From the NCBI RefSeq assembly GCF_014207705.1, contig NZ_JACHIU010000001.1, positions 3,960,501 through 4,024,500 of the forward strand: a stretch of DNA of 64,000 nt, given 5' to 3'. How positions within the stretch are numbered: the stretch's first letter is position 1; each line of letters begins with the position of its first letter. This DNA is from Sphaerisporangium rubeum. Its GTDB lineage: Bacteria; Actinomycetota; Actinomycetes; Streptosporangiales; Streptosporangiaceae. The position numbers were made by a program, and so were the translations under genes. Under the pieces are notes generated by a model. That model made no database searches. It was not told the origin of the DNA and was given only the letters and a program-made list of their open reading frames with translations. Below, one piece after another: positions 45,383 through 59,106 of this stretch.

Positions 45383-46612
45383 ATGATCGGTACGGAGAAC
45401 GACGACGCGCCGATCCGCCGGATGGCGGACGTGGAGGACTTCGCGCGGCAGTGCTTCCAGGGGACGCCTGGCGACCGGATCGGCGTCGAGCTGGAGTTCC
45501 TGGTGTTCGACCGGTCGGACCCCGCCCGGCAGGTGGCCGTCGAGGAGATCGAGCGCGCGCTGCCGCCGATGCCGGGAGGCAGCACCGTGACGTTCGAGCC
45601 CGGCGGCCAGGTCGAACTGTCCGGCCCGCCGGGTGACCTGCCAGGCGCCGTCTGCCGTATGGCCGCCGACGTGACCGGGATGTCCGAGGCCCTGGACCGC
45701 GCGGGCCTGACGGTGGCCGGCTTCGGCCTGGACCCCCTGCGCCGTCCCGTCCGTCAGCTCCACCAGGAGCGGTACGAGGCGATGGCGCGGCTGCTCGGCC
45801 TGCCGTACGGGCCGCTGATGATGTGCCTGACCGCGTCCATCCAGGTCAACGTGGACCTCGGCCGCCGTCCCGCCGTCCGGTGGCGTCACGCCAACATGTT
45901 CGGCCCCGTGCTGAACGCCGCGTTCGCCAACTCGCCGCTGCTGCGCGGCCGGCCCTGCGGCTGGATGTCCGGCCGGCAGGCCGTGTGGCTGCACCTGGAC
46001 CCGACCCGTACCCGTCCCCTGCCGTCCGACGCCGACCCGGTCGCCACCTGGGCCGCCTACCTGGCCGGCGCGCGCCTGATGCCGGGCCGCGAACGGCGCC
46101 GCCGTCCCGCGCCGCCGCGCCGCACGTTCGGCGACTGGATGCGCGGCCCCCGCCTGCCGCGCACTGCCCCCACCGCCGCCGACCTCGCCTACCACGCGAC
46201 CACCGTCTTCCCTCCCGTCCGGCCGAGAGGCTGGCTGGAGATCCGCTACCTCGACGCGCTGCACCCGCGCTGGTGGCCCGTCTGTGTGGCGGTCACGTCG
46301 GCGCTGCTGCTCGACGACGCCGCGGCGGACACCGCCGCCGCGTACGCCGAGCCGCTGGCGGGACACTGGTGGCAGGCGGCGCACGCCGGTCTCGCCGACC
46401 GGCGGCTGCGCGGCGCGGCCGAGGGCTGCTTCCACGCCGCGATCGGCGCGCTCCCCTCACTCGGCGCCTCCCCCGCGCTGGTGGCGGAGGTGGAGGAGTA
46501 CGCCGCGCGGCACGTGACCCCTGGTCTCGGCCCGGCGGCGGAGCTGCTGCTGCGCGCGCGGGACCTCGGCGGGCCGCTGCCGGGGCGGATCTTCGAGGCG
46601 GCCGCGGCGTGA
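45383..46612 (+). CDS. egtA: Ergothioneine biosynthesis glutamate-cysteine ligase EgtA
   Basis: 409-aa ATP-dependent ligase making gamma-glutamylcysteine, sulfur donor for ergothioneine. RIGVELEFLVFD is the nucleotide/metal-binding start of the GCS2 fold; STVTFEPGGQVELSGPP, MCLTASIQVNVDLG and GWLEIRYLDALHP are conserved in EgtA. ATG 45383 with AGGAGG upstream. First of four coupled genes: its stop overlaps the egtB GTG. The product of EgtA is consumed by EgtB. Confidence 0.93.
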   Translation: MIGTENDDAPIRRMADVEDFARQCFQGTPGDRIGVELEFLVFDRSDPARQVAVEEIERALPPMPGGSTVTFEPGGQVELSGPPGDLPGAVCRMAADVTGMSEALDRAGLTVAGFGLDPLRRPVRQLHQERYEAMARLLGLPYGPLMMCLTASIQVNVDLGRRPAVRWRHANMFGPVLNAAFANSPLLRGRPCGWMSGRQAVWLHLDPTRTRPLPSDADPVATWAAYLAGARLMPGRERRRRPAPPRRTFGDWMRGPRLPRTAPTAADLAYHATTVFPPVRPRGWLEIRYLDALHPRWWPVCVAVTSALLLDDAAADTAAAYAEPLAGHWWQAAHAGLADRRLRGAAEGCFHAAIGALPSLGASPALVAEVEEYAARHVTPGLGPAAELLLRARDLGGPLPGRIFEAAAA

Positions 46613-47910
46613 GCGGCGTCAAGGCGCGGATCGCCGCCGAGCTCGTCGCCGGCCGCGGCCGGTCGCTGCGCTACACCGACGTCGACGACGAGACGCTGCT
46701 GCGCCAGCACTCCCCGCTGATGTCGCCGCTGGTGTGGGACCTCGCGCACGTCGGCAACTACGAGGAGCAGTGGGTGCTGCGCCGGGCCGGCGGCCTCGCG
46801 GCCCTGCGTCCGGACATCGACGCGATGTACGACGCGTTCGCGCACCCGCGCGCCGAACGGCCCGCGTTGCCGCTGCTGCCGCCGGCCGAGGCGCGCCGCT
46901 ACATCGCCGGGGTGCGCGACCGGACCCTCGACGTCCTCGACCACATGGACCTGTCCGACCCGCACCCGCTGCGCGCGGACGGCTACGTGTTCGGGCTGGT
47001 CCTGCAGCACGAGCAGCAGCACGCCGAGACGATGCTGGCCACGTTGCAGCTGTCGAGGCTGCCGGGCCTGGTGCGCGACGGCGCGCTGCCCTCGGGCCGC
47101 GCACGCGGACACGACCAGGTCCTGGTGCCGGCGGGGCCGTGCGAGATCGGCACCTCGGCGAGCGCGTGGGCCTACGACAACGAGCGGCCCGCGCACCAGG
47201 TGGACCTGCCGGCGTTCTGGATCGACAGGTTCCCTGTGACCAACGAGGCGTACGAGGAGTTCGTCGAGCACGGCGGGTACGACGACCCGCGCTGGTGGAC
47301 CGTGGACGGCTGGCGGTGGCGGTGCGCGCGCCGGGTGGCGGCGCCGCTGTTCTGGATCAAGGACGGCGGCCGGTGGTGGCGGCTGCGGTTCGGCAGGCAC
47401 GAACCGGTGCCGCCTCGGGAGCCGGTGCAGCACGTGAGCTGGTACGAGGCCGACGCCTACGCGCGGTGGGCCGGCCGCAGGCTGCCGACCGAGGCCGAGT
47501 GGGAGAAGGCCTGCGCGTTCGACCCCCGCACGGGACAGGCGCTGCGGTACCCGTGGGGGGACGGCGACCCGGGGCCACGGCAGGCCAACCTCGGCCACCG
47601 GGCCTCCCGGCCGGCCCCGGCCGGAGCCTTCCCCGCCGGCGCGAGCCCGTGCGGCGCCGAGCAGATGATCGGCGACGTGTGGGAGTGGACCGCCTCGTGG
47701 TTCGCGCCGTACCCGGGGTTCACCGGCTTCCCCTACCGCGAGTACAGCGAGGTGTTCTTCGGCCGCACGCACCGGGTGCTGCGCGGCGGCTCGTGGGCCA
47801 CCCACCCGGCGGCGGTCCGCGCGACGTTCCGCAACTGGGACCTGCCGGTGCGGCGGCAGATCTTCGCGGGCTTCCGCTGCGCGCGCGACGTCACACGGGA
47901 CGAGCTGTGA
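46609..47910 (+). CDS. egtB: Ergothioneine synthase EgtB (sulfoxide synthase)
   Basis: 433-aa non-heme iron enzyme joining gamma-glutamylcysteine (or cysteine) to hercynine with O2. N-terminal DinB-like domain with the three-His iron site: His47 in DLAHVGN and His134/His138 in HEQQHAE, the same layout as in EgtB of Mycolicibacterium thermoresistibile. The C-terminal formylglycine-generating-enzyme-like domain (about 160-433) contains FWIDRFPVTNEAYEEFVEHGG, RLPTEAEWEKACAFDP and the VLRGGSWATHP motif. GTG 46609 overlaps the egtA stop codon, so translation is coupled. Confidence 0.95.
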   Translation: MSGVKARIAAELVAGRGRSLRYTDVDDETLLRQHSPLMSPLVWDLAHVGNYEEQWVLRRAGGLAALRPDIDAMYDAFAHPRAERPALPLLPPAEARRYIAGVRDRTLDVLDHMDLSDPHPLRADGYVFGLVLQHEQQHAETMLATLQLSRLPGLVRDGALPSGRARGHDQVLVPAGPCEIGTSASAWAYDNERPAHQVDLPAFWIDRFPVTNEAYEEFVEHGGYDDPRWWTVDGWRWRCARRVAAPLFWIKDGGRWWRLRFGRHEPVPPREPVQHVSWYEADAYARWAGRRLPTEAEWEKACAFDPRTGQALRYPWGDGDPGPRQANLGHRASRPAPAGAFPAGASPCGAEQMIGDVWEWTASWFAPYPGFTGFPYREYSEVFFGRTHRVLRGGSWATHPAAVRATFRNWDLPVRRQIFAGFRCARDVTRDEL

Positions 47911-47946
47911 CGGGCCGCCGCCGCGCCGCGCGCGGGGAGCACTGAG

Positions 47947-48672
47947 GTGTGCCGCCACGTGGCGTGGGTCGGGGCCCCGCGGACGCTCGCCACGCTGCTG
48001 GACGGCGACGCGGGCCTGATCCGCCAGTCGTACGCGCCGCGATTGCAACGCCACGGCGCCGTCAACGCCGACGGGTTCGGCGCCGGGTGGTACGCGCCGC
48101 GGCGGGCCGAGCCCGTGCGGTACCGGCGGGCCGTGCCGATCTGGACCGACGCCAACCTGCCGGGGCTCGCCGCCGTGGCCGCGTCCGGATGCATGGTCGC
48201 CGCCGTGCGGTCCGCGACCGCGGGCAGTGCCGTGGAGGAGTCGTCGACGGCGCCGTTCACCCACGGGCCGTGGCTGCTCAGCCACAACGGCCGGGTCGCG
48301 CCGCCGGCGGTGCGACCCCTGCTGCGCGGCCTCGACCCCGAGAGCGGCACCGACTCGGCGTGGCTGGCCGCCGCGGTGTTCGCGCGCCTCGCCGCCGGGA
48401 CGCCGCTCGCCGAGGCCGTCGCCGAGGTGGTCACCCTGACCGCGGCGGCCGATCCCGCCGCGCGGCTCAACCTGATCGTCGCCGACGGCGGCCAGGTCGC
48501 CGCCACCGCCTGGGGTGACACCCTGTTCGTCCACCTCACCGGCGGCGTGCTGATCGCCAGCGAGCCGCTCGACCACGAGGAGGGATGGCGCTCGGTACCC
48601 GACCGCCATCTGGTCCACGCCACCCCCGACGGCGTGGTGACCAGCCCGCTCGCGATCCCTGTGACCCCCTGA
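47947..48672 (+). CDS. egtC: Ergothioneine biosynthesis amidohydrolase EgtC
   Basis: 241-aa N-terminal-nucleophile glutamine-amidotransferase-like enzyme that removes glutamate from the gamma-glutamyl hercynylcysteine sulfoxide. The start GTG-TGC gives Met-Cys: after removal of Met, Cys is the catalytic nucleophile (MCRHVAWVGAP). Conserved RHGAVNADGFGAGWY, VRSATAG and LLSHNGRV motifs follow. GTG 47947 with GGGG nearby; 36 bp after egtB. It lies before egtD in the usual order. Confidence 0.93.
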   Translation: MCRHVAWVGAPRTLATLLDGDAGLIRQSYAPRLQRHGAVNADGFGAGWYAPRRAEPVRYRRAVPIWTDANLPGLAAVAASGCMVAAVRSATAGSAVEESSTAPFTHGPWLLSHNGRVAPPAVRPLLRGLDPESGTDSAWLAAAVFARLAAGTPLAEAVAEVVTLTAAADPAARLNLIVADGGQVAATAWGDTLFVHLTGGVLIASEPLDHEEGWRSVPDRHLVHATPDGVVTSPLAIPVTP

Positions 48673-48704
48673 TCCGTGCCGCGCCGTCACACCGGGAGGC
48701 CCGC

Positions 48705-49757
48705 GTGTCCGTCACACAGATCCCGCTGCCGTTCCTGTACACGGTCGACCTCCTCGGCCCCGGCGACCACCGGGCCGTCCTCGCGCGCGAGGTACGCGCC
48801 GGGCTGGCCGACTCTCCCAAATGGCTGTCCCCGACGTGGTTCTACGACGCCGCGGGGAGCGAGCTCTACACCCGGATCACCCGGCTGCCGGAGTACTACC
48901 AGGCACGCACCGAGACGGCGATCCTGCGGGACAACGCCGCGGACGTCGCCGCGCGGACCCGCGCCGAGACGCTGGTGGAGCTCGGCTCCGGCACCAGCGA
49001 GAAAACCGTGCCGCTGCTCGACGCGCTCGGCGCGGCCGGCACGCTGCGGACGTACTCACCGGTGGACGTGGACGCCGTCACCCTGGACGCCGCGGCGAGG
49101 CGTGTCGCGGAGGCGTATCCGGGGCTGGCGGTGTGGGCCGTGCGGGCCGACTTCCAGCGCCACCTCGGCAGGCTGCCGCGCATCGGACGGCGGCTGGTCG
49201 CGTTCCTCGGCGGGACCGTGGGGAACCTGAGCGCCGAGGCGCGGGAGACGTTCTGGCGTGAGCTGTGCGGCACGCTGGCGCCGGGGGACGCGGTGCTGGC
49301 CGGCGCGGACCTGGTGAAGGACACCGGACGGCTCGTCGCGGCCTACGACGACGCCGCAGGGGTGACCGCGGCGTTCAACCGCAACGCGCTGAACGTGCTG
49401 AACCGCGAACTCGGCGCGGACTTCGAGCCGCGGGCCTTCGAGCACGTGGCGCTGTACGACGCCACGTCGCAGCGGATCGAGATGCGTCTCAGGGCGACGC
49501 GCGCCATGCGGGTGGTGATCGGCGCACTCGGCATGGTGGTGGAGTTCAGGGCCGGTGAGGAGATGCGCACCGAGATCAGCGCCAAGTTCCACCGTTACCG
49601 GCTGGAGCGTGAGCTCACGCGCGCCGGGTTCGCCCTCGGCGCGTGGTACACCGACCCCGCCAAGGACTTCGCGCTCGTCCTCGCGCACGTGCCGGAGGAC
49701 CCGGCACGACCCGGCACGGTCACCGAGCGCGGGCCGTCACGCACGCGGCGCGCCTGA
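48705..49757 (+). CDS. egtD: L-histidine N-alpha-trimethyltransferase EgtD
   Basis: 350-aa SAM-dependent methyltransferase that makes hercynine from histidine. WFYDAAGSELYTRITRLPEYYQARTE is the EgtD N-terminal signature; TLVELGSGTSEKTVPLLDAL is motif I and YSPVDVDAVTLDAAARRV motif II; LVAFLGGTVGNLS and GAWYTDPAKDFALVLA are conserved. GTG 48705 is preceded by GGGAGG at five bases. Last of the egtABCD set; no EgtE (PLP C-S lyase) gene follows, so the final step must be encoded elsewhere. Its 3' end overlaps the convergent RES-domain gene by 21 bp. Confidence 0.95.
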   Translation: MSVTQIPLPFLYTVDLLGPGDHRAVLAREVRAGLADSPKWLSPTWFYDAAGSELYTRITRLPEYYQARTETAILRDNAADVAARTRAETLVELGSGTSEKTVPLLDALGAAGTLRTYSPVDVDAVTLDAAARRVAEAYPGLAVWAVRADFQRHLGRLPRIGRRLVAFLGGTVGNLSAEARETFWRELCGTLAPGDAVLAGADLVKDTGRLVAAYDDAAGVTAAFNRNALNVLNRELGADFEPRAFEHVALYDATSQRIEMRLRATRAMRVVIGALGMVVEFRAGEEMRTEISAKFHRYRLERELTRAGFALGAWYTDPAKDFALVLAHVPEDPARPGTVTERGPSRTRRA

Positions 49758-50444
49758 CACGGCGAGCGGAGCGGACGCCACGGCTCCTCGCTGCGGGGAC
49801 GCCACGAAGGTGCGGTACGGCGCGAGCACCGTGTCGACCCACCGCGTGCCGGCCGCGTCGCCGAGGTCGACCGCCTGGACCGGCGGGTCGCCGAGCACGG
49901 TGCCCGGCACCCGGTCGCCGAACAACATCAGCACCCGCTTGCCCTCGTCCCGCTTGGACGACCACACCAGGCCCTGGGCCCACGGCGCCTGCCTGCGCAT
50001 CCAGTGGGCCCACAGACGGGTGCGCGGGTAGTCGTGCGGCTCGGCGCGCACCAGCCAGTCGTCCTGCGCGACCGCGGCCAGGTCGGGGCCGGTGACCAGG
50101 GAGATCAGCGCCAGGGGACGTGTGGTGCGCAGACGGCTCGCCAGGCGTTCGGCGACATGGTCGTAGGGGAGGGAGCGGCGTCCGTCCGCGCCGAACGGCA
50201 GCCCGCGCAGCAGGACCTCGGCGAGCGCGGTGGAGACGTCCAGGCTCGCGTAGTAGAAGCGGTACGGGTCGGTGCGCACCGTGCCGTCGAACCTCCCGCC
50301 GGCCCGGCCGGGAGCACGGGGCCGGGTGAAGCGGTCGGCCCGGACCGCGCGATGGTGCACCCGCCACACCGGGGTACCCGCGGGCAGCAGGAACCGGTTC
50401 GGCCGGCCCGCGTACCTCGGCGGCGGCACCGTACCCGGCATCAC
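49737..50444 (-). CDS. RES-domain protein (NAD+ phosphorylase/glycohydrolase fold)
   Basis: 235-aa RES-domain protein. The opening segment (about 20-70) PVWRVHHRAVRADRF...GGRFDGTVRTDPYRFYYASLDVSTALAEVLLRG has the conserved Arg, Tyr and Glu of RES toxins, which degrade NAD+. RES toxins usually pair with an Xre antitoxin gene upstream; none is present here, so this may be a solitary housekeeping or orphan RES protein. GTG 50444, with an ATG next codon. Its 3' end overlaps egtD by 21 bp in convergent orientation. Toxicity is not shown. Confidence 0.85.
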   Translation of the reverse strand: MMPGTVPPPRYAGRPNRFLLPAGTPVWRVHHRAVRADRFTRPRAPGRAGGRFDGTVRTDPYRFYYASLDVSTALAEVLLRGLPFGADGRRSLPYDHVAERLASRLRTTRPLALISLVTGPDLAAVAQDDWLVRAEPHDYPRTRLWAHWMRRQAPWAQGLVWSSKRDEGKRVLMLFGDRVPGTVLGDPPVQAVDLGDAAGTRWVDTVLAPYRTFVASPQRGAVASAPLAVSGAPRA

Positions 50445-50809
50445 GCCTCGGCCCGTGAAACGTTCCTCGTGGAGGTGGAGATCACGGCCGCAGGATATTG
50501 CGGAGCAACGGCCGTGAATTCATCATTGGATTGGATATGGACCTTCCGCCGAAGAATTCTCCGGTTTCCCGGCTAACTCCGGCGATGGCATGGCGGCGGA
50601 TCACCGCCGGCCTTCCGAAAGCGCGACGCGCTCACACCGGTGAATCTCCCCGGACGCGAGGGCTCCGGCGCCGCCGGAGCGTAGTCAGCCTTCCGGAAGT
50701 GGCCACCGGATGACACTCCTGGCTATAGGTTTTCCGCTTGCCTGTGGCGCACCCTCTCACTAGCGTGTAAACACCACAATTCGATCTTGATCGAGGAGGC
50801 CGGGACCCG
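50445..50809. other. AT-richer intergenic region before the first TPR-regulator gene
   Basis: This gap is markedly lower in GC than the flanking genes around 50510-50600 and 50730-50800. It contains a GCTCCGGC/GCCGGAGC hairpin (about 50661-50680) and a CTATAGG near 50730 that may be part of a promoter for the 50810 gene. A 71-codon frame (50498-50713) has atypical codon use and no good Shine-Dalgarno, so I do not call it. Confidence 0.4.
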
Positions 50810-53155
50810 ATGCCCGCCCAGGAGGAGCGCCTGCGCGCGATCGGGGCCGCGGGGGCGGCCGTGCTCAGCCGGGTCGCCTACCACCAGGTCCGTACCGAGC
50901 AGGTGGCGGCCGAGGTGCGGCTGGGTGACACGCGGGTGGACCGGCCGGCGGGGGGCAGCCGCAGCGCCGTGTGGCTGTACAACGAGGTGAAGAGCCGGCG
51001 CGTGCTCGTCGCGCTCGCGGCGCTGCACGCCTTCGAACGTCACATGGCGGCCGGCGGCTGGTCTCCTCCGGACACCGGGCCGTTCACCGTCACCGACGCC
51101 AGGGCCCTGGTGACGGACGCGCTCACCGAGGTCTGCCGGTTCCAGCGCGCCGAGGCGTTCCTGATGACGCAGGTGGGTCACGGCATCGGCGACATCGCGA
51201 CGTCGGAGAAGCGCGTCAGGACCAGCGAGGCCCCGTCCCGCCCCCCCGCCTGGCCGCCGACACCGCTCGGCCGCGTCGCCGCCGCCGCGTGGACCGGCCG
51301 CCTCACCGTGTTCGCCCCCATGCTGGAGCCGGTGCTGCTCCTCGCGGCCCGTTCGGTGACCGACCCCCCGGCGGGCTGGGCCGCCGAGAGCGCCACGTTC
51401 CTGTCCGACCTGGCCTTCCGTGCCTACCTGGGTGACGCCTACTGCCCTCCCGGCCGCCAGGCCGCGGGCCTCGCGGCGTACTGGTTCGACCGTTCCCTCA
51501 CGATGCTGACCGGCCCCTGGGCCGGTGAGCTGCACGCCGCCGAGGTGGCGCTGACGGCCGTGCGCCGCCGCGGCACCGATCCACGCGCCGAGGCCGCCGC
51601 GCAGGTGACGATCCTGCGCACCCTCCTGGAGGCCGGCACCCTGCACGCCAGGGCCGCGCGCGAGGGCACCGAGGCGATCACGATGTTCCACCGGCTCGCC
51701 GGCCGTCCCGCTCTACCTCCGGCGGCGGGGATCACGGCGTCCGGGACGGCGGCGGCCAGGCCGTCCGGGACGGCGGAGTGGTCCGATCTGCGGTCGCTGT
51801 GCGACGCCGCGACGCGTCAGGGCATCGCGGCGCTGCGGTTCGGCGACATCGCCGGAGCGCGGGCCGCGTACGAGCTCGCCGGGGCCGTGGTGGGAAGCGC
51901 GGTGGAGAGCGCGGCCGAAGGCCGGGGGACGGGGGACGAGCGGCGTTCGCTGGCCCTGCGGGCCAGGCACAACATCGCGGACGTGCTGATCGAGGAGGGC
52001 CGGCCCGGTGCGGGGCTGGCGGTCGCCGAGCAGGTGCACCGCGTGCGGTCCGCCGCGGCGGCGCCGTCCGGCACCGATGCCGCCTGGCGGCGCGCCACGC
52101 TGACGGCCGAGGTGCGGGTCCGCGCGCTGACCAGGTCGGGCCGGGTGGTCGCGGCGGTGCGGGCCGCCGAGGAACTGGTGACCGACCGCAGGGAACGCCT
52201 CGGCGGCGTGGACAACGTGAGCGCGGCGAGCGCGCGGGTCACCCTGGCCGAGGCGCTGCTGGCGGCGGGCCATCCCGGCGAGGCCCGCCACCACATCGAG
52301 GACGCCTCCCAGTACCGCCGCGGCCGGCTGGTCGCCACCGGCTACTGGCCCCAGTACGACAGGGTGCTGCTGGCCCAGGCGCACATCGCGCTCGGCGCTC
52401 CCGGCGCCGCGGTGGAGATCCTGCGTGCGGCTCCGGTCACCGGTGAGTGGTTCGCCACGCGGGTGTCGGCCCGTCTGGCGCTCAACGCGCACCGCCTGCT
52501 GGCCCTCGCGCACGCCGCGCTCCACGAGACCGGCCTGGCCCTGGACGGGTTGCGCGCTCTGTCGGAGACCTTCGACTCCCGTCCGGCGGGGGACGCGCTC
52601 GCCGTGGTGGTGTGGCGGGACCTGTGCGAGCTCCTGATCGCCACCGGGGAGATCGATCAGGCCCGGTGCCTGCTCTCCCGTGTCACGCAGGCCGAGCCGC
52701 CGGCCGCCGAGGACCTTCCCGGCCACGCCTACACCCTGCTGCTGCGCACGTTGCTCGCCGCGCACGAGGACGGCGCCACGCAGGGGGTGCCGGCTCCCCG
52801 CGAGGCGGTCACGGCGGAGCGCCGCGACGTGCGGGACATCCCCGTAGCGGCCGCCGACGGCGACGCGGCCGGGCCGGGGCTCGACCCGGCGCGTGCCGAG
52901 CTGGTCCGGCTGGGTCTCGACCCGGCGCATCCGGTGCTGCTGCGCGTCGCCTACGAGGAGGCCCGCCGCCGAGGCGCGCACGATCCCGCGGCGGCCGCGG
53001 AGCTGCTGGCGCCACTGATGTGCCGCCGTCCCCTCGCGCACGGCCGGCCCGCGATCGGCGACGGCCACCCGCTGCACCTGGCCGCCAGGGACCTGGCCGA
53101 CCAGTTCGCCCTGCCTGGTCCCGCCGAGCCGGGACCCGCCTGGGACGACTACTGA
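50810..53155 (+). CDS. Large TetR-like HTH plus TPR-like protein, paralog 1
   Basis: 781-aa protein, no named family. The N-terminal 70 residues align with a TetR helix-turn-helix: LRAIGAAGAAVLSRVAYHQVRTEQVAAEVRL then RSAVWLYNEVKSRRVLVALAALHAFE, where WLYNEVKSRRVL corresponds to the recognition helix and following turn (compare LYYHFKTKDDII in TetR). GIGDIATSEKR (about 127) is shared with paralog 2. From about 300 onward the chain is helical with TPR-like units (ARHNIADVLIEEGRPGAGLAVAEQ, ARVTLAEALLAAGHPGEARHHIEDA). The C-terminal RRPLAHGRPAIGDGHPLHLAARDLA block is also shared. ATG 50810 after GAGGAGG (10 bp). Probably a regulator; partner genes follow on the minus strand. Confidence 0.75.
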   Translation: MPAQEERLRAIGAAGAAVLSRVAYHQVRTEQVAAEVRLGDTRVDRPAGGSRSAVWLYNEVKSRRVLVALAALHAFERHMAAGGWSPPDTGPFTVTDARALVTDALTEVCRFQRAEAFLMTQVGHGIGDIATSEKRVRTSEAPSRPPAWPPTPLGRVAAAAWTGRLTVFAPMLEPVLLLAARSVTDPPAGWAAESATFLSDLAFRAYLGDAYCPPGRQAAGLAAYWFDRSLTMLTGPWAGELHAAEVALTAVRRRGTDPRAEAAAQVTILRTLLEAGTLHARAAREGTEAITMFHRLAGRPALPPAAGITASGTAAARPSGTAEWSDLRSLCDAATRQGIAALRFGDIAGARAAYELAGAVVGSAVESAAEGRGTGDERRSLALRARHNIADVLIEEGRPGAGLAVAEQVHRVRSAAAAPSGTDAAWRRATLTAEVRVRALTRSGRVVAAVRAAEELVTDRRERLGGVDNVSAASARVTLAEALLAAGHPGEARHHIEDASQYRRGRLVATGYWPQYDRVLLAQAHIALGAPGAAVEILRAAPVTGEWFATRVSARLALNAHRLLALAHAALHETGLALDGLRALSETFDSRPAGDALAVVVWRDLCELLIATGEIDQARCLLSRVTQAEPPAAEDLPGHAYTLLLRTLLAAHEDGATQGVPAPREAVTAERRDVRDIPVAAADGDAAGPGLDPARAELVRLGLDPAHPVLLRVAYEEARRRGAHDPAAAAELLAPLMCRRPLAHGRPAIGDGHPLHLAARDLADQFALPGPAEPGPAWDDY

Positions 53156-53200
53156 CGCACGCGCCGCATGGCCGGCCGGCGACGCCGCGGCCGGAAGCGG

Positions 53201-54280
53201 TCACGCGCGCCGCGGCGGGCCGGTCAGTGCCGCCGCGGGTGGGAAGGCGGCGCGCGCGGCGGCCCAGCGGTCGAGCAGCGGCCCGGTCAGCGAGGCCGGC
53301 AGGTACGGTGCGAGCGGGCCGAGGTCATGGCCGCCGAGCAGGAGCAGCGGGCCGCGTACGTACACCGCGGCGAGGCGGGGCAGCGGCGCGAAGTCCGGTG
53401 AGGGCCTGGTCGCGGCGGCGCGCAGCGCGGCGGGTACGGGTCCGGCGGACGCCAGCCAGGCGCCGTACCCCGGCAACCGGCCGACGCGCTCGGCCAGCCC
53501 CACGCGCAGCCACCGCGCCTCCTCCAGGTCACCCGCCAGCACGCAGGAGACCGTGGCGAGCACCTCCACGGCCATCGCGTAGGTCTCCGCCGCCATCAGC
53601 CCGTACCCGAACTCCACGCCGAGCGGGGTCGCGGCGAGATGGTCCAGGTGCGCTCCCTCGTGCACCCCGCGCCAGATGCGCTCCTGGAGCGGCGCGGCCC
53701 TGCGCGGCACGTCCGCGTACACGTTCCTCGGCCCGGCCGGGGAGGGCAGCCGCATCCAGCACCGTCCGGCGAGCCCTCCGCACCGGTCGGTCCGCACGAT
53801 CGTGTAGGCGCCGCACGGCGAGGGCCGGTGCCGCTCTCCCCAGCGCAGGTCGGCCGCCGCGTCCTGCCGCGTCCCGCCGGTCGAGGGCTCCCCCGGGCAG
53901 GCCTCCGCCACGGCGTCGCAGAACTCCCCGATCGCACGGCACGCGTCCCACAGGGCCGGGGACCGGCCCGGCGAGACGCAGGCGGCGACCGGGTGCGCGG
54001 CGCGTCCGGCGGCCAGGTAGTACGGCGGCAGGGGCCCGGCCAGCGCGCGCAGTGCGCGCAGCCGCGTGGCGTGACATCCCGCGTACCGGATCCCGACCCT
54101 GCGCACCACCTCGTCCAGTCCGCGGAACGCCTCCACGGCGACCTCGTCGTGCTCGGCGAGCGCGAGCCCCGCGAAGGCGATCTCGGCCCAGCCACGGGTG
54201 CGCCAGGCGGCGGCCTCGCGTCCCGCGGCGGGGACGTGGGTGGCCTCGGTGGCCGCGGCGACGGCCCAGGCCCGGCTCAT
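53201..54280 (-). CDS. HExxH-motif protein, putative metalloenzyme, unknown function
   Basis: 359-aa protein. HEGAH (207-211) is an HExxH motif inside RIWRGVHEGAHLDHLAATPLG, and Glu232 in AAETYAM, 21 residues after the second His, would complete a gluzincin-type metal site. The N-terminal half is helical and Cys-containing (YAGCHATRLRALRAL, WDACRAIGEFCDAVAEACPG). HExxH proteins accompany several peptide-modifying gene clusters, but I cannot place this one in a named family, and a protease or oxygenase activity is equally possible. ATG 54280 overlaps the stop of the upstream oxygenase gene (ATGA), so the two are made together. Confidence 0.65.
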   Translation of the reverse strand: MSRAWAVAAATEATHVPAAGREAAAWRTRGWAEIAFAGLALAEHDEVAVEAFRGLDEVVRRVGIRYAGCHATRLRALRALAGPLPPYYLAAGRAAHPVAACVSPGRSPALWDACRAIGEFCDAVAEACPGEPSTGGTRQDAAADLRWGERHRPSPCGAYTIVRTDRCGGLAGRCWMRLPSPAGPRNVYADVPRRAAPLQERIWRGVHEGAHLDHLAATPLGVEFGYGLMAAETYAMAVEVLATVSCVLAGDLEEARWLRVGLAERVGRLPGYGAWLASAGPVPAALRAAATRPSPDFAPLPRLAAVYVRGPLLLLGGHDLGPLAPYLPASLTGPLLDRWAAARAAFPPAAALTGPPRRA

Positions 54281-54984
54281 CGGTCCGCCCACAGGCGTAC
54301 CCGCAGCAGCCGACGCTCGGGGTCGGCGAAGGGGGTGCGGCCGTGCAGGGTGCGCCGGTTGTCGATGACGATGACGTCGCCGGGGTGGTGGCACAGGCGG
54401 ACGGCGGGTGCGTGGCGCAGCCCGGACTCGAACACGGTGGCGGCCTGCGCCTGCGGCGGCCGGAGCGGGCCGAGGTTGTCCCTGCGCCACCGCACCGTCC
54501 CGTCGCCGGGGAGCACCGGCATCGGCGGGACGGCCGCGGCGGCCTTGCTGAAGACGTCCGGCGGGGTCCAGGTCCAGACGGGCTGCGCGAGGCGTTCCAG
54601 CGCCGTCTCCCCCGCCGGTTCGCGGCGTAAGGCGGTGACCACGTCGCGCTCGGTGAGCAGCATGGTGTCCCCGCCGTCGTCGGCGGGCCGCACCACGAAC
54701 AGGCAGATCACGTCCTCCGGCCTGCTGTGGTACTGCGCGTCGGTGTGGAAGGCCGCGCCGCCCGCGCGCATCGAGAAGGTGGCTCCCGGCCGGGTGGTGC
54801 GCGGCGCGATCGTCCAGATCTCCCGTCCGCCGTCCCGGTCCGACGGTCTGCCGAACCCCGTGGCGATGCGCAGCACCCCCTCGGGGTCGGGCCGGCCGTG
54901 CGGGAGGAACGGCGCGTCGTTCAGCAGGGCCCAGCCGCGGGCCGCCAGTTCCTCCTGTGCGCGTGCGATCTCGGTCTCCCGCAT
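54277..54984 (-). CDS. Fe(II)/2-oxoglutarate-dependent oxygenase, TauD/TfdA family
   Basis: 235-aa TauD-type oxygenase. The metal site is His-x-Asp in AAFHTDAQYHSRPED (about 98-103) with the distal His in RTLHGRTPFADPERRLLRVRLW, whose Arg binds 2-oxoglutarate. ATG 54984 has GAGGAGGAG two to three bases before TC-ATG. Closest in style to amino-acid/peptide hydroxylases of the clavaminate synthase-like group. Translation is coupled to the HExxH gene downstream. Probably hydroxylates an amino acid, carrier-bound or peptide substrate; the substrate is not known. Confidence 0.85.
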   Translation of the reverse strand: MRETEIARAQEELAARGWALLNDAPFLPHGRPDPEGVLRIATGFGRPSDRDGGREIWTIAPRTTRPGATFSMRAGGAAFHTDAQYHSRPEDVICLFVVRPADDGGDTMLLTERDVVTALRREPAGETALERLAQPVWTWTPPDVFSKAAAAVPPMPVLPGDGTVRWRRDNLGPLRPPQAQAATVFESGLRHAPAVRLCHHPGDVIVIDNRRTLHGRTPFADPERRLLRVRLWADR

Positions 54985-55172
54985 GACTCCTCCTCGCGTC
55001 GGTGGGTGGGGACGGGCACGCGTCGCCGCGAACACCGCCGTCCGGCGGGGATTTCACCGGACCCAGCAGCGCCGAGTGATATGAGCAAAATGAGCAAAAT
55101 GACGGAAAGGTACTCTTACTAGAGAACCGCTGCGCCTGGTCACCCCCCGGCCGTCGGCGGGTCGTTCCCCGG

Positions 55173-55373
55173 TCACTCCCCACGACCGCCGTCCCCGCTT
55201 CCGGCCGCCCGGCCCTGTGGCCCGCCGGGGACCGGTGACCCATCGGAACAGCGACGATGATCCTCACCCGCTCTCCCCTGCCCTCCGCCACTCCCCGTCA
55301 CCCCCGCACCCGCCCTCGACGCAGGCGTCACCATAGGCTTACGAACTGGTGCGGCTTCCCGCGAAAGATTCAT
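55173..55373 (-). CDS. Candidate short peptide gene upstream of the oxygenase-HExxH pair
   Basis: 66-codon frame, ATG 55373 with GGAG nine bases upstream, oriented with the oxygenase gene and ending 188 bp before it. It reads M-N-L-S-R-E-A-A-P-V-R-K-P-M-V-T-P-A-S-R then a Gly-rich end with one Cys (HRRCSDGSP). Codon third positions are much less GC-rich than in real genes here, so it may be noncoding or a recently evolved peptide. Offered only as a possible substrate or precursor. Confidence 0.2.
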   Translation of the reverse strand: MNLSREAAPVRKPMVTPASRAGAGVTGSGGGQGRAGEDHRRCSDGSPVPGGPQGRAAGSGDGGRGE

Positions 55374-55457
55374 GTCAGAAAGCTCCGCGCGACGCGTCGC
55401 CACCGGGACCGCGGCCCCTGCCGCCGCGCGGCGGCCGGCCGATGGGACCATGGCGGC

Positions 55458-56555
55458 ATGCCGGGGCCGGCGGTGCCGAATCTTGGGGAAGTGATGGCGG
55501 AGATCCGCCTGGTGCGGGAGAGGGGGTTGCTACGGCTCGGTCAGGTGCGGCTTCCCGCTCTCGCGTCCGCGGTCACGGCCCTCGGGCTGCCGGCGGCGGA
55601 GGGGCTGCTCGCTCCGTCGATCATCAGGATGCTCGAACAGGTGCTGGAACGCCTCGGCGGCGGCACGCTCGGCGAGGCCACGGCGTACACACTGGGTCTC
55701 GTGCCGGGGACGCGTGACTGGCCGGCGCAGACGCGGCGGCAGCGGGCCGCGGACGTGTACGGGCTCAGCGTGGAGCGGTTCCGCAAGGACCGGGAGCGGC
55801 TGATCCTCGGGCACGTCGCCGAGACGATCCTGGCGCTGTGCGCGGAGGCCGCCGCGGGTGGTCGCGACGTGCCGGCGGTGGGGAGGGCACGGCGGCTGGT
55901 GGTGCGGGCCGGGGACGCCGACGTGACGATCACGGTGCACCGGGCCCCTGTGGAGACGCTCCGGGGGATGGACGTGCTGGTGTCCTCGGAGAACATCTAC
56001 CTGGAGATGGCCAAGACCTACCGGTCGTCGTTGTCGGCCACGCTGCGCAACGCGGCGGCGCGGCGCGCGGTGACCGGCGAGATGGTGGACGACGTGCTGC
56101 AGCGGGAGCTGCGCGAGTGGCTGCGCGCGCACGGCCGCGAAGGCATGCCGGTGACGCCGGGAACCGTGGTGGCCACCTCCCCCGGGGAGCTGGCACGCCA
56201 GGGGGTGCGGCGGGTCTACCACGCCGCGACCGCGGTCCCCCGGCCCGGCACCGACGGCTACACCGTGGACCCCGCTGCGGTGCTGCGCGCGGTGCGCTCG
56301 GTCTTCGCCATGGCCCGCGCGGAACGCGACCGCTTCGGCCCGCCGCTGCGTTCCCTCTGCTTCCCGGTGTTCGGCGCCGGCCGTGGGGGGCTGCCGCCGG
56401 AGACGGGCCTCGCCTACCTCTGGGCCGCGCTGGAGCCGGAGCTGTCGGTCCCCGGCCCGTGGGACGTCCACCTGATGACGCGCAAGGAGCGCACCGCCGC
56501 CGCCGTCGTCACCGGGCTCCCGCTGGCGTCCCCGCCGCCGTCCCCCGGCCCTTGA
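55458..56555 (+). CDS. Macro-domain protein with an unassigned N-terminal helical domain
   Basis: 365-aa protein. The C-terminal part (about 150-350) matches the macro domain that binds ADP-ribose: TITVHRAPVETLRGMDVLVSSENIYL, MPVTPGTVVATSPGELARQGVRRVYHAATAV and SLCFPVFGAGRGGLPPETGLAYLWAAL. The first 130 residues (AEIRLVRERGLLRLGQVRLPALASAV, QRAADVYGLSVERFRKDRERLILGHVAETIL) form a helical domain that I recall as recurrent in actinobacterial proteins but cannot name. ATG 55458 is used; a start at 55494 (MAEIRLV) with GGGGAAG is as likely. Divergent from the oxygenase pair and upstream of the second TPR regulator. Confidence 0.75.
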   Translation: MPGPAVPNLGEVMAEIRLVRERGLLRLGQVRLPALASAVTALGLPAAEGLLAPSIIRMLEQVLERLGGGTLGEATAYTLGLVPGTRDWPAQTRRQRAADVYGLSVERFRKDRERLILGHVAETILALCAEAAAGGRDVPAVGRARRLVVRAGDADVTITVHRAPVETLRGMDVLVSSENIYLEMAKTYRSSLSATLRNAAARRAVTGEMVDDVLQRELREWLRAHGREGMPVTPGTVVATSPGELARQGVRRVYHAATAVPRPGTDGYTVDPAAVLRAVRSVFAMARAERDRFGPPLRSLCFPVFGAGRGGLPPETGLAYLWAALEPELSVPGPWDVHLMTRKERTAAAVVTGLPLASPPPSPGP

Positions 56556-56946
56556 CCGGCCGCGCACGGGCCGGGGACGCCGTCCGGCGCGGAGCGAGGG
56601 CCGTCCGGCGCGACGAGGGTGCCGTCCGGCGCACGCCGACGGCCGTCCGGCGCACGGCAGGGTCACGAAGGCGGTGGGGTGGCGGGTGAGCGAAGTGTGG
56701 GAATTTCATACATCTATTGCCGGAGATTTGAGTATTTGGTTGGTTGATTGCGGGTCGCAGTACGGGCGGTTTGCGGGCACTGCCGTAATTACCGGGGCCG
56801 CAGGGGCAGGCCGGAGCGGGGATGGCGGGGGGTCGCGCAGGACGCCGATTCGTGGTGCGAGATATATGCTTTGTAGATCAATGGACCTTTTGCCGTTGAT
56901 ATCCCTACTCCAGGTGAACCGCAGGACTGACCGAGGAGGTTCCAGG
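56556..56946. other. Intergenic region between the macro-domain gene and TPR-regulator 2
   Basis: The first third carries four iterons (see separate entry); the second (about 56700-56800 and 56860-56925) is AT-rich, e.g. GGGAATTTCATACATC and GATATATGCTTTG, which suits a promoter for the downstream gene. No Shine-Dalgarno or conserved frame suggests an extra gene. Confidence 0.45.
56581..56654. repeat. Four 11-bp iterons with exact 21-bp spacing
   Basis: CCGTCCGGCGC occurs at 56581, 56602, 56623 and 56644, always 21 bp apart, with unrelated filler between copies. Two helical turns per step puts all copies on one face of the DNA, as in operator arrays bound cooperatively. They lie between the macro-domain gene and the second TPR-regulator gene. 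Confidence 0.8.
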
Positions 56947-59106
56947 GTGTCGGCGCAGGAAAGACGGCTCTCCGCGATCGGGGAGGCCGCGGCAGGGGTC
57001 CTCCGCCACACCGACTACCACTTGGTGCGGGCCGAGGACGTCGCGGCGGCGGTACGGCTGTCCCGAGAGGGACAGAGCGGACGGCGTAGCGCCGTGTGGC
57101 TGTACAACGAGGTGAAGAGCCGCCGGGTCCTGGTCGCGCTGGCCATCCGGCACGCCTTCACCGAGTTCGCCGAGCGCAACGGCCCTCTTGAGCCGCCGGC
57201 CACGCCGGGAAGCCTGGTGGAGGCCCGTGACCTGGTCACGCAGGCACTGCTGGTGATCGCGCGGTTCCACCGCGCGGAGTCGTTCCTGACCCGGCAGGTG
57301 CAGCTCGGCATCGGCGACATCGCGACCTCCGAGAAGCGGCAGTCCGCGCCGCAGGGACCGCCGGTCTGGCCGGGAGGCATCGGCCAGGTCGCCGCCGCGG
57401 GGTGGTCGGGCCGGGTGATCGCCTACGCCGACCACCTGGCGCCGGTGCTGAGCGCCGCGGCGAGCGCCGTGTGCCTGCCCACGGCCAAGTGGATCCGTGA
57501 GAGCGCCGAGAAGCTGTCCCACCTGGCCTTCGACGCCTTGGCCGACGACACCGACGGGCCGGTGGACCGGCAGGCCGCGGCTTTGAGCGCGCACTGGTAC
57601 GAACGCCACCTGGTGCCGCTCGCCGGCACGTGGATCCACGACCTGGACGTGGCCGAGCGCGCCAGGGACGTCGCCAGGCGCACCGGCGCCGGCACCCACG
57701 CCGAGTCCGACGCGCAGGCCGGCGTGGTGCGCGCGCTCCTCGACACCGGCATCCTGCTCGAACGGGCCGCACGCGAGGCCGCGGAACTGACCCGCCTGCT
57801 GTCGCTGCCGGACGCGCGCACCGACAACGACCTGCGTTCACGGTGCGACGTGCTGAGCCGCCGGGGGCTCGCGCTGCTGCGGTTCGGCGACCTGGAGGCG
57901 GCCAGGGAGAGCTTCGAGTCGTCCCTGAAGATCGCCGAGAACGAGAAGGAGCCGTTCTGCCCCGCCGGTGAGGCCTCCTCCTACGCCGCGCGCGCACGCA
58001 ACAACCTCGGCGAGGTGCTCGTCGAGGAGGGCCGTCCCGTCGAAGGCGGCGCGCACATCGAGCAGGCGCGGACGGCGCGCGCCGACGCCGCGACGAGGAC
58101 GGCCGGGGTGTCGGCCGCGTGGCGCCGCTACACCCTCACCGCGCAGGCCGCGGCGCGCGCGACGGTCCGCGCGGGCCGGGTGGTGAAGGGGGTGCGGCTC
58201 GCCGAGGCGGTGGTCGCCGACCGGCGTGAGCGCCTCGGGGAGCTCGGCGACATCAACGTGGTGGGGGCCAGGGTGTCGCTCGGCGAGGCCCTGCTGGAGG
58301 CGGGCCAGCCGGTGGAGGCACGCCACCTGCTCCAGGAGGCGGGACGGCACCGCGCCGACCTGCTGCAGCCGATCGCCTACTGGCCGGGCCACGACACGGT
58401 GCGGCTGGCGCAGGCGGAGCTGGCTCTTGAGGACGGGGGCTCCGCGCTGCGGGTGCTGGAGCGGTCCCCCGTGCTGGACGAGTGGTTCGCGAGGCACGTG
58501 TCGTTCCGGCTGTGGGCCGAGGCACGGGTGACGCGCGCGCTCGCGTTGTCGCTCGGCGGCGAGCACTCCGAGGCCTGCCGGTCCCTCGACGAGCTGACCC
58601 GCCTGATCGCCGGTGCGCGGCCGGACGCGCTGGTGCTGTCGGCGTGGCGCGCGCTGGCCGAGGTGCGGCTGGCCGGCGGCGACCCGCAGGGGGCCATGGT
58701 GCCGCTGGAGCGCGCACGCGCGGCCGAGTCACGGCCGGGGGACCCGCCGGGACGGGCCCGCACCCTGCTGCTGGCGGCGCGCTGCGCCGACCTGTGCGGC
58801 GAACCGGTGACCGCCGCGCGCCACCGGACGGCGCTGGCCGCGCTGACCGACGACGGGCTCGACGCCACGCACCCGGTGCTGCTGGAGGCGGGCTACGACA
58901 AGGCGCACCGCCTGTTCGACGAGGGACGGTTCGACAACCTGGACGAGCTGCTCGCGCCGCTGCTCGACCGCACCCCGCTGGCGCACAACCGGCCGCCGCT
59001 CGGTGACGGCCATCCCTTGCTGTTCCGCGCCGTCCTGCTGGCCGACCGCAGCGGCGCCGTGCGCATGCCGCAGGCCCCACGGCAGATCCTCTGGGAGGAC
59101 GTCTGA
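56947..59106 (+). CDS. Large TetR-like HTH plus TPR-like protein, paralog 2
   Basis: 719-aa paralog of the protein at 50810. GTG 56947 has GAGGAGG seven bases upstream. TetR-like N-terminus RLSAIGEAAAGVLRHTDYHLVRAEDVAAAVRL ... RSAVWLYNEVKSRRVLVALAIRHAF; the shared LGIGDIATSEKR block; TPR-like helices (CDVLSRRGLALLRFGDLEAARESFESSLKIA, RARNNLGEVLVEEGRPVEGGAHIEQA, ARVSLGEALLEAGQPVEARHLLQEA); and the C-terminal RTPLAHNRPPLGDGHPLLFRAVLLA block. Both paralogs keep the WLYNEVKSRRVLVALA segment almost unchanged, suggesting DNA recognition is conserved while the TPR half has diverged. Convergent with the FUSC gene. Confidence 0.75.
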   Translation: MSAQERRLSAIGEAAAGVLRHTDYHLVRAEDVAAAVRLSREGQSGRRSAVWLYNEVKSRRVLVALAIRHAFTEFAERNGPLEPPATPGSLVEARDLVTQALLVIARFHRAESFLTRQVQLGIGDIATSEKRQSAPQGPPVWPGGIGQVAAAGWSGRVIAYADHLAPVLSAAASAVCLPTAKWIRESAEKLSHLAFDALADDTDGPVDRQAAALSAHWYERHLVPLAGTWIHDLDVAERARDVARRTGAGTHAESDAQAGVVRALLDTGILLERAAREAAELTRLLSLPDARTDNDLRSRCDVLSRRGLALLRFGDLEAARESFESSLKIAENEKEPFCPAGEASSYAARARNNLGEVLVEEGRPVEGGAHIEQARTARADAATRTAGVSAAWRRYTLTAQAAARATVRAGRVVKGVRLAEAVVADRRERLGELGDINVVGARVSLGEALLEAGQPVEARHLLQEAGRHRADLLQPIAYWPGHDTVRLAQAELALEDGGSALRVLERSPVLDEWFARHVSFRLWAEARVTRALALSLGGEHSEACRSLDELTRLIAGARPDALVLSAWRALAEVRLAGGDPQGAMVPLERARAAESRPGDPPGRARTLLLAARCADLCGEPVTAARHRTALAALTDDGLDATHPVLLEAGYDKAHRLFDEGRFDNLDELLAPLLDRTPLAHNRPPLGDGHPLLFRAVLLADRSGAVRMPQAPRQILWEDV

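Follow-up and report, generated by a model that had tools for sequence, protein, structure and literature searches.

A gene for a TauD-type oxygenase and a gene for a protein with an HExxH-type motif form a nearly inseparable pair, beside which genes for a macro-domain-like protein (Macro), for an HTH-TPR protein and, less often, for a RES-domain protein recur. In part of the relatives this cassette is contiguous with GAP1-N2/DO-GTPase/Hsp70 genes or with kinase/ClpB/radical-SAM/FHA/CHAT genes. Because of these recurrent pairings and conflict-system neighbours, we prefer to read the locus as a regulated modular effector cassette from the conflict systems (for cell defence or programmed dormancy) of actinobacteria, rather than as a biosynthetic or peptide-modifying pathway; the reading is tentative, at somewhat less than an even chance. 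The window, by which we mean the whole analysed stretch of 64,000 nucleotides, belongs to the 7.5 Mb, single-contig genome of Sphaerisporangium rubeum; here the cassette has neither core machinery nor a RES antitoxin nearby and adjoins a resident HTH-TPR gene. The features are as follows:

45383-49757, plus strand: egtA, egtB, egtC and egtD (ergothioneine-type cluster), directly upstream
49737-50441, minus strand: RES-domain protein (NAD+ phosphorylase-type), called by Pfam RES at 70.5 bits
50810-53155, plus strand: HTPR1, TetR-like HTH (weak by sequence) followed by a TPR superhelix, 781 aa, limits from the codon-usage caller
53201-54280, minus strand: HExxH protein, 359 aa, helical model, limits from the codon-usage caller
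54277-54984, minus strand: TauD/clavaminate-synthase-type Fe(II)/2-oxoglutarate oxygenase, short form, 235 aa, called by Pfam
55458-56555, plus strand: Macro protein, 365 aa, with an N-terminal adaptor-like domain of about 140 aa and a C-terminal divergent macro domain
56859-56904 (limits approximate), plus strand: conserved DNA upstream of HTPR2 (GAGATATATGCTTTG...GCCGTTGATATCC), putative promoter/operator
56947-59106, plus strand: HTPR2, TetR-like HTH (weak by sequence) and TPR superhelix, 719 aa, limits from the codon-usage caller

The five genes singled out in the earlier note proved real and correctly placed by codon-usage gene calling, the caller having been trained on seven window intervals that include HTPR1, HTPR2, TauD and Macro; it also sets the gene limits in relatives. 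The RES gene, outside the interval of that note, belongs to the gene association as well; its product clearly passes the Pfam cut-off of 23.2 bits and it is the sole RES gene of the window genome. The HEGAH motif and the coupling of the oxygenase gene to the HExxH gene were found as described, with tauD overlapping the start of the HExxH gene by 4 nt. The divergent neighbour of TauD is Macro rather than an HTH-TPR gene, and that of HTPR1 is RES. On the 5' side, egtD was named by Pfam Methyltransf_33, which passes its cut-off, and egtA-C by sequence and order, while gene calling places a FUSC-type membrane protein and then a molybdopterin dehydrogenase subunit 3' of HTPR2.

Homologs of the five proteins do recur together in other genomes, as the co-occurrence check proposed in the earlier note reveals. 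We assembled 23 HExxH loci (the window, L071-L090, L108 and L110), and TauD adjoins HExxH in 21 of them. The exceptions are L074, with no TauD match, and L089, a contig of 3.75 kb; since G033, where a contig of equal length bears the L089 HExxH piece, carries an N-terminal HExxH piece together with TauD and HTH-TPR on a second contig, the L089 locus was probably just split in assembly. A full Macro gene accompanies the pair in 19/23 loci, with L085 as a twentieth that holds the Macro N-domain only; HTH-TPR is present in 18/23 (and lies about 13 and 16 kb off in two further genomes), and RES in six. Pattern-based scanning of a species-level collection returned 20 HExxH loci with names, distributed over Herbidospora (6), Acrocarpospora (4), Nonomuraea (3), Sinosporangium and Actinomadura (2 each), and Sphaerisporangium, a Streptosporangiaceae and Micromonospora (1 each). 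Among 200 genomes of the family, HTPR2 matches occur in 30 and the HExxH profile in 17, all 17 within the 30 (hypergeometric 6.5e-17, kinship ignored); HTH-TPR thus stands without an HExxH gene in 13 of the 30, and the Macro profile is matched at any strength in 35/200. In the class sample of 394 genomes, HExxH was detected in three, one of them marginal. HTH-TPR matches there come from 54 genomes, although among the matches listed only the window genome and G033 give full-length ones, the remainder being short ones that fall within the TPR part or, for seven genomes, cover residues 7-39. The distance matrices of four of the proteins over 13 loci correlate with r 0.82-0.94, kinship being ignored here too. 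Chance is excluded, as the cassette proteins are conserved across genera, mostly at 40-60% identity.

The arrangement of the cassette is less fixed than its content. TauD-HExxH is directly divergent from HTH-TPR in 13/23 loci, and nine loci show the exact order Macro, HExxH-TauD, HTH-TPR; Macro is placed beyond HTH-TPR, on its far side or farther, in the three Nonomuraea loci, and in the window and L078 the HExxH-TauD pair is flanked by HTPR1 on the HExxH side and by Macro on the TauD side. The surrounding gene neighbourhoods differ from genus to genus.

We were also interested in the two HTH-TPR paralogs of the window. Both contain the WLYNEVKSRRVLVALA and GIGDIATSEK blocks and end on RP(A/P)(I/L)GDGHPL, in agreement with what had been noticed earlier. 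As for their predicted domains, the TPR part stands: Pfam TPR_12 matches 28/28 family members at E up to 5 (best 8e-22), and the fold model is a TPR superhelix, in line with Pfam. The TetR-like HTH is only weakly supported by sequence, with TetR_N matched in 1/28 members (E 0.018, not over the cut-off) and only two PDB profile matches up to E 5, both to TetR proteins and both weak (E 0.73 and 1.4, the N domain having been searched within a larger profile), and the helices of the AlphaFold model (3-19, 29-35, 49-56 and 59-78) accord with it, their order fitting TetR apart from a loose 13-residue turn. L052 and L070 were left out of the HTH alignment. In one relative FxSxx_TPR was matched at 46 bits (vs 300), which we took for generic TPR. 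HTPR genes are found beside a CHAT-domain TPR protein in L049 and, by eye, beside a large TPR-like protein in L066, in both cases in stretches without the cassette.

The picture of two bracketing paralogs turned out to be local: apart from the window, a single genome shows this layout. HTPR2 is the resident gene beside egtD in the genus, where its proteins form one clade; in eight other genomes of the genus sample it keeps this place but the cassette is absent, and one more genome lacks HTPR2. RES, HTPR1, HExxH, TauD and Macro together at the egtD site occur only in the window and in G182 (Sphaerisporangium corydalis; L042/L078) of the 11 genus genomes, and the HTPR1 clade is likewise found only in these two. 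Recent tandem duplication of HTPR1 and HTPR2 was rejected, because the two HTPR1 proteins fall outside the HTPR2 clade in a tree that was built with a quick method, from which L067 and L069 were left out and in which the long branches L066, L070 and L085 are unsurely placed. In G173, which belongs to the same genus (g33) as the Herbidospora contigs, a 58-residue Macro piece in a frame with a stop (G173:C1:495052-495219, L114; E 1e-5) precedes a lone HTH-TPR gene; this 5'-end remnant is a possible deletion scar of the cassette. Given the local bracket and this putative scar, the cassette seems to be gained and lost beside HTH-TPR genes.

The oxygenase half of the pair is readily assigned, as PF02668 matches TauD at 71.9 bits (cut-off 27). 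Of its HTD...H...R motif, HTD is present in 13/13 members, and the (L/M)H(A/G)R and R(V/I)R motifs in 12/13, the TauD of L056 having a masked run. The best PDB profile match is asparagine oxygenase (AsnO, E 3e-11), followed by other amino-acid hydroxylases; the protein is short, however, and the alignment starts only at AsnO residue 134. The HExxH protein carries H207-E-G-A-H211 together with the invariant E232 and E239. HEGAH is found in 8/19 HExxH proteins (window counted) and HDGAH in 11/19, so that the catalytic Glu of gluzincins is not conserved, whereas an invariant Glu 19-38 residues past the second His in 19/19 could provide the third ligand of a putative metal site. The best structural matches of the model are helical metallopeptidases, and these are weak. 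In Sphaerisporangium corydalis (L042/L078) the HExxH protein has a long proline/histidine-rich repeat insert between its motif blocks; owing to this proline-rich insert and a gene start called late, L042 was shortened in one alignment and omitted from another. L110 (G079:C24) holds a second, divergent HExxH gene, 31% identical and accompanied by a separate TauD at a distance of about 60 bp, which adjoins, by eye, a NACHT-like STAND protein.

Macro scores 20.1 to 20.6 bits, just under the Pfam cut-off of 22, and 10/12 members of its family match Pfam macro at E<=5. The profile of the putative macro domain is nearest to TTHA0132 (E 9e-4) and DR_2288. The N-domain gave no significant PDB match by sequence. 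It has one copy in the window genome, and in L085, where it is the only part of Macro present, it is fused to NB-ARC-TPR. Macro also occurs apart from HExxH. Nine such loci were examined (L101-L107, L112 and L113), and five of them have RES: in L104, L105 and L107 it is the neighbour of Macro or one gene away, whereas the distance is greater in L102 and L113. In relatives, RES has next to it the gene for a 200-aa protein that we call f23, placed as an antitoxin would be, and the genes for f23, RES and Macro lie side by side on one strand in L077, L104, L105, L107 and L108. From this placement f23 may be a new family of RES antitoxins, presumably resembling MbcA/Xre C-termini. As a known antitoxin it was rejected, with no Pfam support in the scanned members and an unrelated chromoprotein as best PDB match (E 0.012). 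In the window genome the best f23 match reaches E 0.685 only, and no further gene was called beside RES; an unrelated antitoxin may be encoded elsewhere.

The neighbours of the cassette point to conflict systems. ClpB- and kinase-type companions accompany 9/23 HExxH loci, Hsp70 two and GAP1 one. The ClpB-type AAA+ and Ser/Thr kinase genes surround the cassette in the Acrocarpospora loci, two of the three Nonomuraea loci, NEAU-GS5, G198 and L090 (Actinomadura), and most of these loci also have a radical-SAM activase-like, FHA/zinc-ribbon or CHAT-TPR protein; the Pfam identities of these companions were tested on L072 members. L108 presents a run of TauD, HExxH, Macro, RES, f23, one uncharacterised gene, ClpB-like, radical SAM, FHA and kinase. 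In L080 (Actinomadura sp. DC4) the genes after the cassette encode GrpE, Hsp70, a protein that is FNIII-like by a weak fn3 match, DO-GTPase2 and GAP1-N2, with Pfam scores of 39.7 bits vs 27 for DO-GTPase2 and 130 vs 24 for GAP1-N2 and with GrpE also over its cut-off, and a Macro protein lies near Hsp70, DO-GTPase2 and GAP1-N2 in L101. No core conflict system and no GAP1 match was found in the 64-kb window. The nearest recognised related set of the window genome, about 1 Mb away, comprises kinase/ClpB/radical-SAM genes and a 30%-identical HTH-TPR protein. L069 (G000:C1:2999700-3019600), in the same genome, is a system related to the cassette locus, in which an HTPR-like gene is grouped with radical SAM, a vWA-like lipoprotein (by eye), a kinase and a ClpB-like ATPase. 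A defence library gave no match for six window proteins, and only the CHAT protein of a relative matched, weakly.

Could an operator be recognised upstream of these genes? The DNA ahead of HTH-TPR genes is conserved, and the block in front of HTPR2 is a possible promoter/operator. In the TauD-HTPR gap of L050, L057 and L061 (Herbidospora) a perfect palindrome with 14-bp arms and a 5-nt loop is present, which 0/100 shuffles equalled in each of the three loci, the shuffles preserving single-base content only. Of 18 other regions, L062 (0/100) and the RES/HTPR1 gap of the window (3/100) yielded GC-rich hairpins unlike the Herbidospora palindrome, and at least 17/100 shuffles were equally good in the remaining 16. 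No Herbidospora-like palindrome was found in the window, and a universal operator palindrome was rejected, the perfect one being limited to three Herbidospora loci among the regions tested. An argument from shared promoters fails in the window as well, where TauD is divergent from Macro and HTPR1 from RES.

Several other explanations have to be weighed against the effector cassette. The genes could form a secondary-metabolite or signal operon in which TauD hydroxylates an amino acid, HExxH finishes the molecule, HTH-TPR is a quorum-type receptor, and Macro and RES are passengers. The asparagine oxygenase and amino-acid hydroxylase matches of TauD, the similarity of the TPR part to the peptide sensors NprR and Rap, and the direct divergence of HTH-TPR and TauD in 13/23 loci all speak for such an operon, yet Macro is found in 19/23 loci, no other biosynthetic-type family co-travels across genera in ten-kilobase flanks, no conserved precursor peptide appeared in the matches inspected, and TauD is short, its match starting at AsnO residue 134; we regard this operon as unlikely. 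A RiPP pathway, with HExxH as a 2-oxoglutarate-dependent peptide hydroxylase acting with TauD on a small precursor, resembles the peptide-modifying clusters to which the locus had been compared, and it would account for the HExxH-like motif adjoining an oxygenase gene, for HD in place of HE in 11/19 relatives, which argues against a plain protease, and for the radical-SAM gene of some neighbourhoods. That parallel has been weakened. None of 13 HExxH members matches TIGR04267 or other NCBIfam HExxH models at E<=5, and profile comparison (hhalign) against 12 TIGR04267 proteins gave a probability of 0.2%, so that an assignment as TIGR04267 peptide hydroxylase was rejected for lack of sequence or profile similarity; besides, metallopeptidases are the best structural matches of the model. 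No conserved peptide ORF was recognised among the gap-ORF matches inspected across genera, from which a fast-evolving peptide would escape: of 33 cross-genus matches, the 25 listed fall in the HTH-TPR/TauD gap or one L090/L108 gap, and they look like conserved DNA, as most match in several frames. We consider a RiPP pathway very improbable. Three genes for TIGR04267 HExxH peptide hydroxylases do exist in the window genome (G000:C1:6217874, 627302 and 5169682), unrelated by sequence to the window protein.

Equally remote, in our estimate, is the view that these are unlinked genes in a low-rearrangement neighbourhood, co-inherited by descent only. Nearly all carriers belong to one family, and HTPR2, as one clade, adjoins the egt genes in every genome of the genus sample but the one without HTPR2, as this view would predict; it is at odds with the differing neighbourhoods of the cassette, with the retention of the TauD-HExxH pair in the atypical loci L085 and L090 and in the 31%-identical copy of L110, and with the pairing of Macro and RES elsewhere, and for TauD-HExxH it is already largely refuted. 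Besides linkage and companions, the effector cassette has in its favour the TPR fold, the conserved DNA ahead of HTH-TPR genes and the Herbidospora palindrome. It has weak points of its own: conflict-type companions are found in fewer than half of the loci, the window has no core system, no antitoxin beside RES and no defence-library match, HTH-TPR also occurs without HExxH, vertical descent in a single family may explain much of the co-occurrence, and the Macro N-domain is single-copy, whereas effector-associated domains are described as multi-copy (PMC8195603).

For the effector cassette, we infer the regulator role, the substrates and a metabolite route from RES to Macro as follows. The HTH-TPR protein would be a one-component sensor that governs the promoter of its own gene and also, in loci where the two are transcribed divergently, the tauD-hexxh operon; upon a danger signal the cassette would be released. 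The idea of one functional unit, as proposed from the letters of the window, is thus upheld with regard to gene linkage, its sensing and control part stays conjectural, and modification of a peptide is very improbable. Macro proteins can act on ADP-ribose-1''-phosphate. RES enzymes are described to form this compound by phosphorolysis of NAD+ (PMC11535050, in its accessible part). A more daring proposal, which we think rather unlikely, is a new NAD+-centred immune module, in which RES makes ADP-ribose-1''-phosphate, an adaptor-recruited Macro reads or clears the product, and the pair of oxygenase and HxxxH protein makes or destroys a second signal sensed by HTH-TPR. If true, it would give ADP-ribose-1''-phosphate a dedicated signalling partner. 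The accessible text of PMC11535050 raises the question of a specific role for this metabolite, and adjacent RES and macro genes make such a role directly testable. The near-fixed TauD-HExxH pair, the putative HTH-TPR sensor, the adaptor-macro protein and RES beside Macro would add building blocks, undescribed in the papers searched, to the conflict systems of multicellular actinobacteria.

Our literature search, with closed-access papers and further preprints outside its scope, found no paper on this gene set, and known systems resemble it in parts. TIGR04267 hydroxylases share the HExxH-type motif and differ in the downstream motif (AESYAMAVE in the window protein). An Xre-type HTH is a trait of the RRNPP family, whose sensors (NprR, Rap) share the TPR superhelix, a common fold; the HTH-TPR protein differs by a longer superhelix, a TetR-like HTH as far as its sequence suggests one, and the lack of any cognate peptide gene found across genera. 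With the RES-Xre modules MbcTA and NatRT the cassette has in common a RES domain over the Pfam cut-off and, in relatives, a gene (f23) encoded beside RES; unlike in those modules, the f23 members scanned match no antitoxin family, a search of the window genome gave no f23, and the pair is joined by a macro gene. The Macro N-domain is like the EAD adaptor proteins (PMC8195603, accessible part) in its terminal position and in having a fusion partner, which is a macro domain or, for L085, NB-ARC-TPR, the copy number given above setting it apart. The window is without the core genes of GAP1-N2 conflict systems, for which a Hsp70/GrpE theme has been described (Kaur et al. 2020, PMC7159879), and neither a TauD-HExxH pair nor RES nor HTH-TPR is among the variable components described in the accessible part of that paper. 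In L080, however, the cassette directly adjoins GrpE/Hsp70/FNIII-like/DO-GTPase2/GAP1-N2, which corresponds to the second theme of these GAP1-N2 DO-GTPase systems as the same part presents it (PMC7159879).
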